This document shows positions 61,122 to 62,838 of a stretch of DNA of 64,000 bases, piece by piece (position 1 is the stretch's first letter; the number at the start of each line of letters is the position of its first letter). The stretch lies in the NCBI RefSeq assembly GCF_002160815.1, contig NZ_NFLH01000004.1:1-64000 (forward strand), in the 5' to 3' direction. The position numbers and the translations under genes are program-made. The stretch comes from Massilimicrobiota sp. An134 (GTDB lineage Bacteria > Bacillota_I > Bacilli_A > Erysipelotrichales > Coprobacillaceae). Below the pieces are notes generated by a model. The model was not told the DNA's origin, made no database searches, and saw only the letters and a list, made by a program, of their open reading frames with translations.

Positions 61122-61151
61122 TTGTTTTTTCATTTGTGATTATTGTATAAT
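61122..61151 (+). promoter_or_regulatory. Promoter of the leader peptide and MFS transporter
   Basis: TTGTTT at 61122-61127 and TATAAT at 61146-61151 are 18 bases apart. The transcript would begin about 15 bases before the leader start codon. Confidence 0.6.
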
Positions 61152-61172
61152 GAAAAACATGGAGGGATAGAG

Positions 61173-61193
61173 ATGGTGCTTTTTCGAATTTGA
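61173..61193 (+). CDS. Leader peptide MVLFRI
   Basis: A perfect ribosome site, GGAGGG at 61161-61166, is followed at the right distance by ATG and six sense codons (MVLFRI) before TGA at 61191-61193. It lies about 17 bases from the predicted transcript start. The stop codon sits on the left arm of a long hairpin, so a ribosome ending or stalling here would disturb it. Such short peptides control many antibiotic-resistance and efflux genes. This is an inference from layout. Confidence 0.55.
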   Translation: MVLFRI

Positions 61194-61247
61194 TAAAAAC
61201 AATTTTTATTTTAGATTATTCTACATTTTGATGTAGATGTTTTTATC
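61192..61247 (+). promoter_or_regulatory. Nested hairpins of a putative attenuator
   Basis: GATAAAAACA at 61192-61201 pairs perfectly with TGTTTTTATC at 61238-61247. Within it, CTACAT-TTTG-ATGTAG (61221-61236) forms a hairpin that is followed by ATGTTTTT, like a weak intrinsic terminator. The AAAGGA of the transporter gene begins a few bases later. Confidence 0.6.
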
Positions 61248-61272
61248 ATACTGAGAAAGGACTATTTGATTT

Positions 61273-62409
61273 ATGAAAAAAAGAAATATCTATCTCTTGT
61301 TTGCGATTGAATGGCTACAAGGAATGGTTTTTTATAGTTCTGTTGCAACTTTATATCGTCAAAATCATGGATTGACATTAGTTGAAATGGGATTGATTGA
61401 AAGCCTGTTTTCAATACTTGTTTTTATTTTAGAAATCCCTATGGGATATTTATGTGATCGTTTAGGATATAAGAAAACGATGATGAGCTGTTATGGAATC
61501 TATCTTTTATCAAAGATTGTATTCTATCAGGCTTATGGATTTTCGATGTTTTTATTAGAAAGATTATTATTAGCGATAACAGTATCAGGACTTTCTGGCT
61601 GTGATAGTGCATTTTTGTATCTGTCAACTGGCAAGATAGAAAATCCACGTGTTTTTGGATATCTCCATGCCTGTGGTGTCGCAGGCATGATGATGTCATC
61701 AATGGCTTTTTCATTGTGGATTCATGATATGGAATTAGCTGCTTTATATACCATTTTGCCTTATTTTATAGCGTTTCTATTATCTTTCTTTTTGGAAGAT
61801 ATTCCTATGGAAGGAAGTTCTCATATGGGAATCAAAGATGCATTTTCATTATTGTTTCAACAAAAAAGACATATTCTTTTTTTGATTGCTTCAGCATTAT
61901 TATTAGAAACAACACATACAATCAGTGTGTTTTATAGTCAGCTGCAATGGAAAGCCAGTCATATTCCAGTTATCTATTTTGGACTCATTTCTATTTTTAT
62001 GACAGCCATACCTCTTTTAGGGGCGAGTTTAGGGAAAATAGTCGAATATATTCGTGAAAAGACACTGATGTTTTTATTGGTATTTGTTTCCATGATCACC
62101 TGTATCATATTGGCATTGAGTCATCATCCTTATATATCTATTGCAGGGATTATGATTTTAACTTTAGTAGAAGCTTTTTATTCTCCTTTATCACAGTCGC
62201 TTATGAATCAACGTGTTGAGGGTGCTTTAAGAGTCACCATGTTATCAATTTATTCAATGATTATGAATATGGTAGGGATTGTGATGAATATGAGTTTTGG
62301 AGTGGCTGGTGATATCAATATTCAATGGGTGATGATTTTAGGAGGATGTTTTTGTTTTTTGAGTCTATTATGTTTAAAAAGAGAAAATCAGAAAAATAAG
62401 GAGATTTAA
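61273..62409 (+). CDS. MFS transporter
   Basis: The 378-residue membrane protein has about 11 to 12 helices and the MFS loop motif GYLCDRLGYKKTMM near 57-70. The cytoplasmic loop between helices 6 and 7 is short, and the last residues are basic. It resembles drug or small-molecule exporters, but no substrate is indicated. AGAAAGGA precedes the ATG. The leader peptide and hairpins upstream suggest that expression answers to translation, as for inducible efflux pumps. The PAS-domain gene follows after three bases. Confidence 0.85.
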   Translation: MKKRNIYLLFAIEWLQGMVFYSSVATLYRQNHGLTLVEMGLIESLFSILVFILEIPMGYLCDRLGYKKTMMSCYGIYLLSKIVFYQAYGFSMFLLERLLLAITVSGLSGCDSAFLYLSTGKIENPRVFGYLHACGVAGMMMSSMAFSLWIHDMELAALYTILPYFIAFLLSFFLEDIPMEGSSHMGIKDAFSLLFQQKRHILFLIASALLLETTHTISVFYSQLQWKASHIPVIYFGLISIFMTAIPLLGASLGKIVEYIREKTLMFLLVFVSMITCIILALSHHPYISIAGIMILTLVEAFYSPLSQSLMNQRVEGALRVTMLSIYSMIMNMVGIVMNMSFGVAGDINIQWVMILGGCFCFLSLLCLKRENQKNKEI

Positions 62410-62412
62410 ATA

Positions 62413-62793
62413 ATGGAACTGACAAAGGATGTTTTATTAGGTATTTTAGATGCCTACGCTTATGAAATTGTTTTTGTAGATAGAAATCATATTGTGCAAT
62501 ATATGAATAAGACTGCCAAACAAAGATATGGACAAAGAGTTCAAATTGGTCAAAGTTTATTTCAGTGTCATAATGAAAATTCACGTTACAAGATTGAAGA
62601 ATTTTTAGTGAGGGCTGATCAGGGTGAAGAAGAAATGTTTGAACTTTATAATCAAAAAACAGGTGAAAGAGAATTTTTTGTGCCTGTTAGAGTTGATGGG
62701 CAAGTGATTGGTTATTTTGAAAGACATGAAGCCCCATGGGATCAAGAACATCCTGAAATCCCTGTAGGTGAATATTGGAAACGTCGTGAATGA
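62413..62793 (+). CDS. PAS-domain protein coupled to the MFS transporter
   Basis: The 126-residue protein is a single PAS fold: LLGILDAYAYEIVFVDRNHIV, then YMNKTAKQRYG, GQSLFQCHNE, and ELYNQKTGEREFFVPVRVDGQVIGYFERHE. It is close to the PAS_10/DUF438 group. There is no output domain and no membrane segment. It begins three bases after the transporter stop and likely shares its ribosomes. It could sense a ligand or haem and affect the transporter, but this is inference. Confidence 0.72.
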   Translation: MELTKDVLLGILDAYAYEIVFVDRNHIVQYMNKTAKQRYGQRVQIGQSLFQCHNENSRYKIEEFLVRADQGEEEMFELYNQKTGEREFFVPVRVDGQVIGYFERHEAPWDQEHPEIPVGEYWKRRE

Positions 62794-62799
62794 TGATGG

Positions 62800-62838
62800 A
62801 GGAAGATTTTAAAAATAGATTGAAATCTTCCTTTTTTG
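62800..62838 (+). terminator. Terminator of the MFS/PAS operon
   Basis: AGGAAGATTT pairs with AAATCTTCCT around 13 bases, then TTTTT. Confidence 0.82.

Follow-up and report, generated by a model that had tools for sequence, protein, structure and literature searches.

Our analysis of the 64,000-nucleotide stretch of Massilimicrobiota sp. An134 DNA (the window) suggests that the leader of a major facilitator superfamily (MFS) gene is, quite probably, a ribosome-mediated attenuator of a putative exporter, opened by a drug-stalled ribosome. The short upstream open reading frame (uORF) and the Shine-Dalgarno (SD) sequence of the MFS gene are predicted to be complementary within the leader mRNA. 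Once the six codons have been read and the ribosomes are gone, the uORF RNA would fold back onto the MFS SD and close it, and part of the transcripts may in addition be ended by a nested hairpin with a U tract. A translation inhibitor that parks a ribosome at or near the uORF start codon would cover the left arm, leave the SD free, and allow the exporter to be made. Computational support for this model comes from the SD-led uORF, its pairing to the MFS SD, and the conservation of both, from which we infer translation of the uORF and ribosome stalling on it. By analogy with known systems, our best guess for the inducer is a lincosamide, pleuromutilin, or streptogramin A. Attenuation by uORFs is already known as a general mechanism; the MFS exporter family is a new user of it, and a search of the open-access literature found no paper on this MFS/uORF family. 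The leader and the genes behind it comprise the following features:

61122-61127 (+), promoter -35 element TTGTTT
61146-61151 (+), promoter -10 element TATAAT, 18 bp from the -35 element
61161-61166 (+), SD of the uORF, GGAGGG; anti-SD duplex of -11.1 kcal/mol; conserved in L002 and L003
61171-61186 (+), left arm of the SD-sequestering stem (AGAUGGU, CUUUUUCG), covering uORF codons 1-5 in the minimum free energy (MFE) fold
61173-61193 (+), uORF MVLFRI* (ATG GTG CTT TTT CGA ATT TGA)
61191-61201 (+), left arm of the 11-bp inverted repeat, whose complementarity is 100%; this arm does not vary among three species
61220-61237 (+), inner hairpin TCTACAT-TTTG-ATGTAGA; 7-bp stem, invariant, with one variable loop base
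61238-61248 (+), U tract TGTTTTTATCA, which doubles as the right arm of the 11-bp repeat and might be a weak terminator
61252-61267 (+), right arm of the SD-sequestering stem, including the MFS SD (MFE fold, three-species comparison)
61253-61261 (+), MFS SD GAGAAAGGA, inside that right arm
61273-62409 (+), MFS transporter of 378 aa, the presumed controlled gene (MFS_1, E 6.4e-30)
62413-62793 (+), small PAS-domain gene (PAS_10 above cut-off), starting 3 nt past the MFS stop

The earlier note credited the leader with a full promoter. The TATAAT indeed lies where it had been placed, but the wording is generous for the -35 element, in which only TTG fits and which is absent from the list of the promoter scan. 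The same spacing of TATAAT and TTG occurs in L002 and L003, and transcription is expected to start near 61158-61160. The strong ribosome site and the six-codon frame MVLFRI were both correctly located. A pattern search for this SD-uORF arrangement in its own genome, which is low in G+C, returned 14 further matches with two mismatches. The gene upstream of the leader is AddB-like and divergent, and the leader hairpin is therefore not that gene's terminator. No Rfam match above the gathering score was found in the window, and no Rfam leader model covers the MFS family.

Pairing of uORF codons 1-5 with the MFS SD is the key element missing from the earlier note. In the MFE fold, AGAUGGU (61171-61177), which includes the uORF AUG, pairs with ACUAUUU (61261-61267), and CUUUUUCG (61179-61186) pairs with UGAGAAAG (61252-61259) across the SD; the SD is 13% unpaired in the window copy. 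The stretch 61122-61290, which takes in some untranscribed promoter, has a folding energy of -38.3 kcal/mol (z = -4.0), equaled by 0 of 200 shuffles, and the transcribed leader alone reaches z = -4.8. In this copy, the unpaired fraction of the SD window rises from 0.17 to 0.82 with a footprint on the start codon and to 0.45 with one on the stop codon. Averaged over the family, the fraction is 0.26 without a ribosome versus 0.51-0.53 with a footprint on the uORF start or stop, and 32% when the spacer is masked instead of the uORF. A ribosome halted on the uORF should thus open the exporter's ribosome site. Since the uORF start codon is itself paired in the full-length fold, the model depends on translation during transcription.

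Nested within the SD-sequestering stem are the 11-bp repeat and the inner hairpin. The uORF stop codon forms the first three bases of the repeat (61191-61201/61238-61248), in line with the earlier claim that the stop falls on the left arm, except that the repeat is a perfect 11 nt rather than ten. Directly 3' of the inner hairpin comes TGTTTTTATC. The order of inner hairpin, T run, and transporter ribosome site is therefore as described previously, but termination appears weak here: the hairpin reaches -5.3 kcal/mol with 2 G-C pairs and is not listed by the terminator scan of the window. Transcription attenuation is probably added in many family members and is uncertain in the window copy. Hairpins of terminator-like character (-5 kcal/mol or better) occur in the leaders of 14 of 29 members versus 20 of 191 controls; the terminator is clear in several homologues, the strongest reaching -19.5 kcal/mol.

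Aligning relatives, the check that the earlier note had proposed, found the six-codon frame and the stems conserved in two further Massilimicrobiota species, whose MFS proteins are 95% and 68% identical to that of the window. Promoter spacing, SD, uORF, stems, and the downstream PAS gene are all kept. Their uORFs read MVLFQI* and MVLFLI*, i.e., MVLF-x-I is retained in three species with R, Q, or L at codon 5. Against the more distant species (L003), the segment running from the uORF SD through the uORF and arm is identical at 41 of 43 bases and the hairpin/U tract at 28 of 29, the loop at 11 of 18, and the fourfold-degenerate sites of the MFS gene at 60%. All 37 pairs, including all 19 of helix 1, hold in the three species; sliding the partner by 1-3 columns lowers pairing to 46-59%. 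In the SD-sequestering stem, two pairs show changes in both partners, although covariation taken alone is modest with three close sequences (54 of 500 shuffles as good).

The leader layout also recurs across two classes of Firmicutes, ahead of MFS homologues 28-47% identical to the window protein, in the same order, Roseburia, Paraclostridium, and other Clostridia. Of 316 genomes of the order, 33 contain relatives detected with the family profile, as do 9 of 391 sampled genomes of the Clostridia-type class, the class search being centered on G652; a protein search further located plasmid copies in Roseburia and Paraclostridium. In most relatives, the MFS start is preceded at 40-130 nt by an SD-led uORF. 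The peptides include a Pro-Ile/Val type (MNLPI, MSRPI, MYRPI, MNRPI, MRKPI, and, from a GTG start, VCRPV), other short ones (MVDI, MADI, MLRI, MCLSI, MKNVD, MAD, MRH, MKKC, MHLQD), and longer ones (MHAPRS, MYVPVH, MLHAPLH, MIRAPKH, MNADVRS, MNNVLH, MIYICTP). For the structural survey of the leaders, uORFs were picked by eye; the unbiased figures come from one automatic rule, by which 30 of 41 loci have an SD-led short uORF against 15 of 162 among the control genes (P = 6e-16), and a uORF paired with the gene's own SD occurs at 18 of 41 loci versus 1 of 162 (P = 1e-13). A non-redundant set retains a paired uORF in 14 of 33 loci (P = 1e-11). These P values assume independent loci and are weakened by relatedness. 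Control genes were drawn from 20 stretches and the window, and the sole control with a paired uORF (L053) has a "uORF" that, by eye, apparently lies within an unannotated small coding region.

Complementarity is near-perfect at some loci (UUUGAUACACC/GGUGUAUCAAA in L079; UUUAAUACACC/GGUGUAUUAAA in L077). Across the family, uORFs pair with their own SD at a mean of -9.8 versus -5.8 kcal/mol for swapped partners (z = -9.5), a result that 0 of 20000 permutations reached. Of 25 leaders, 22 have a fold z below -2, the median being -3.9. Members bearing uORFs are spread throughout the protein tree, together with some lacking them: no recognizable uORF was found in family members L032, L037, L040-L042, and L044, and no well-placed SD-led short uORF in the more distant same-order MFS proteins L007, L008, L009, and L013. 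The family members devoid of a uORF speak against the model, as do four AUG-stop uORFs that lack the stem. Conservation in close relatives and recurrence in distant homologues nevertheless strongly support the earlier proposal of translation-coupled control of the MFS gene.

Two of the features that characterize uORF-based attenuators are found here: a conserved short SD-led uORF and an SD-closing structure incompatible with a ribosome on it. An intrinsic terminator between uORF and gene, expected in transcription attenuators only, is weak in this copy. In the cat-86/cat and ermC translation attenuators, leader codons and the downstream SD share one stem that a stalled ribosome opens. The leader described here would work as these do, with a different target gene and different peptides and with a terminator-like hairpin nested inside the stem. 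It also resembles vmlR of Bacillus subtilis and cplR of Clostridioides difficile in its very short SD-led uORF, its leader hairpin with a U tract, and the sequestered SD of the main gene (PMC9226507, PMC10201436). The target there is an ARE-ABCF and here MFS_1; the leader would work like theirs but falls outside that group. Furthermore, the uORFs of vmlR and cplR sit in a 5' hairpin of their own, and these leaders also possess a mutually exclusive antiterminator, whereas here the uORF codons themselves close the SD. The mef/msrD system shares a six-codon leader (MsrDL, MYLIFM) and an inducible operon with an MFS exporter among its genes, but relies on transcription attenuation and peptide-specific macrolide stalling (PMC10314930, PMC4335068); the MFS family shows no peptide constraint comparable to that of MsrDL.

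Sensing of one particular drug or metabolite by the nascent MVLFRI in the exit tunnel, in the way that MsrDL responds to erythromycin at its stop codon, is a reading that we consider unlikely. MVLFRI matches MsrDL in length and hydrophobic character, MVLF-x-I is kept in the three species, and I-stop or H-stop is a common ending among the family peptides. However, the residue conservation within the genus is equally explained by pairing, and the peptide-specific response suggested earlier is disfavored by the substitutions at codon 5 and, farther out, by whole peptides that vary from 1 to 12 in length with no family motif while SD pairing stays. The uORF peptide is thus probably not a specific sensor, and early stalling of the lincosamide/pleuromutilin type is likelier. 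For short uORFs like that of cplR (MRI), pleuromutilin, lincosamide, streptogramin A, and nucleoside drugs have been invoked, which halt ribosomes once initiation is over and show little sequence preference (PMC10201436), and the vmlR uORF MIN can be replaced by MDN or MDK without loss (PMC9226507). A broader reading, which we hold tentatively and at somewhat less than an even chance, is that uORF codons evolve mainly as an anti-SD arm, the peptide being a by-product, in a widespread, unrecognized attenuator class of Bacilli and Clostridia whose switch would report any ribosome stalled at or just after initiation. The codons CCU, ACC, and UUU may be demanded by complementarity to GGAGG/GAAAGG, which would explain the frequent Pro and Phe.

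Attenuation by a stalled ribosome must also be weighed against accounts that do without drug sensing. Ribosomes finishing the uORF could simply open the stem and aid MFS translation constitutively; the stop-codon footprint implies that every passing ribosome would do so. We regard such coupling as very unlikely, given that about 80 nt separate the uORF stop from the MFS start, which is far for direct coupling, that terminator-like hairpins nested in half of the family suggest switching, and that it leaves unexplained why an exporter family retains such a leader. An attenuator responding to amino acid starvation by stalling at hungry codons would have the same general layout of leader peptide and hairpins, but is scarcely credible for uORFs with no repeated codon, no amino acid common to the family peptides, and an MFS transporter rather than a biosynthetic gene downstream. 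Just as improbable is that a short ORF and A/T-rich repeats came together by accident in intergenic DNA of low G+C content. Taken by itself, the promoter match does not exceed random expectation, and A/T-rich repeats are common in the window, yet conservation above neutral sites, the family-wide statistics, and the comparison of own with swapped pairing contradict this explanation.

The MFS protein itself reaches no model's cut-off in an NCBIfam search, with weak sub-threshold matches only. Among solved structures, NorA chains are the best relatives of the family profile (E 2e-7), and a phage collection gave a single match (26%). The transporter would export the inducing drug under the stalled-ribosome model, an MFS fold alone not establishing drug export. 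If correct, the model places an unnamed gut-bacterial exporter family under antibiotic-style inducible control, making its members likely drug resistance genes, and predicts the inducing drug classes; if the broader anti-SD reading holds, the exporters become candidate inducible lincosamide/pleuromutilin-type resistance genes. The natural series of unrelated uORFs with the same pairing logic could separate peptide sensing from ribosome-position sensing.

The small PAS-domain gene, probably cotranscribed with the MFS gene, lies 3' of it in all three Massilimicrobiota species and directly downstream of MFS genes in L016 and L017 as well. A terminator-like hairpin at 62801-62837 (GGAAGATTT...AAATCTTCC, then T6) closes the pair in the window.

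Other leaders came to light during the survey. At L005, L025, L043, and L046, AUG-stop "uORFs" (ATG followed by TAA or TAG) sit 40-58 nt before the start of a related MFS gene; a good SD precedes three of the four, no stem closing the MFS SD was found at these loci, and L005 and L025 are sisters in the protein tree. In another MFS subfamily (about 25% identical; L010, L011, and L014), a longer leader ORF with a strong SD and the conserved ending ...KGRVRPK* stands ahead of a hairpin with a long T run and looks like a different, conserved leader-peptide attenuator. Finally, L065 (8222-8392, on the window's contig about 28 kb past the window end) and L053 (near 5460, minus strand) share near-identical DNA in two genera, with a strong-SD short ORF, MTRHVTIK*, about 121 nt before a GNAT-like acetyltransferase gene; this DNA is probably on a mobile element.
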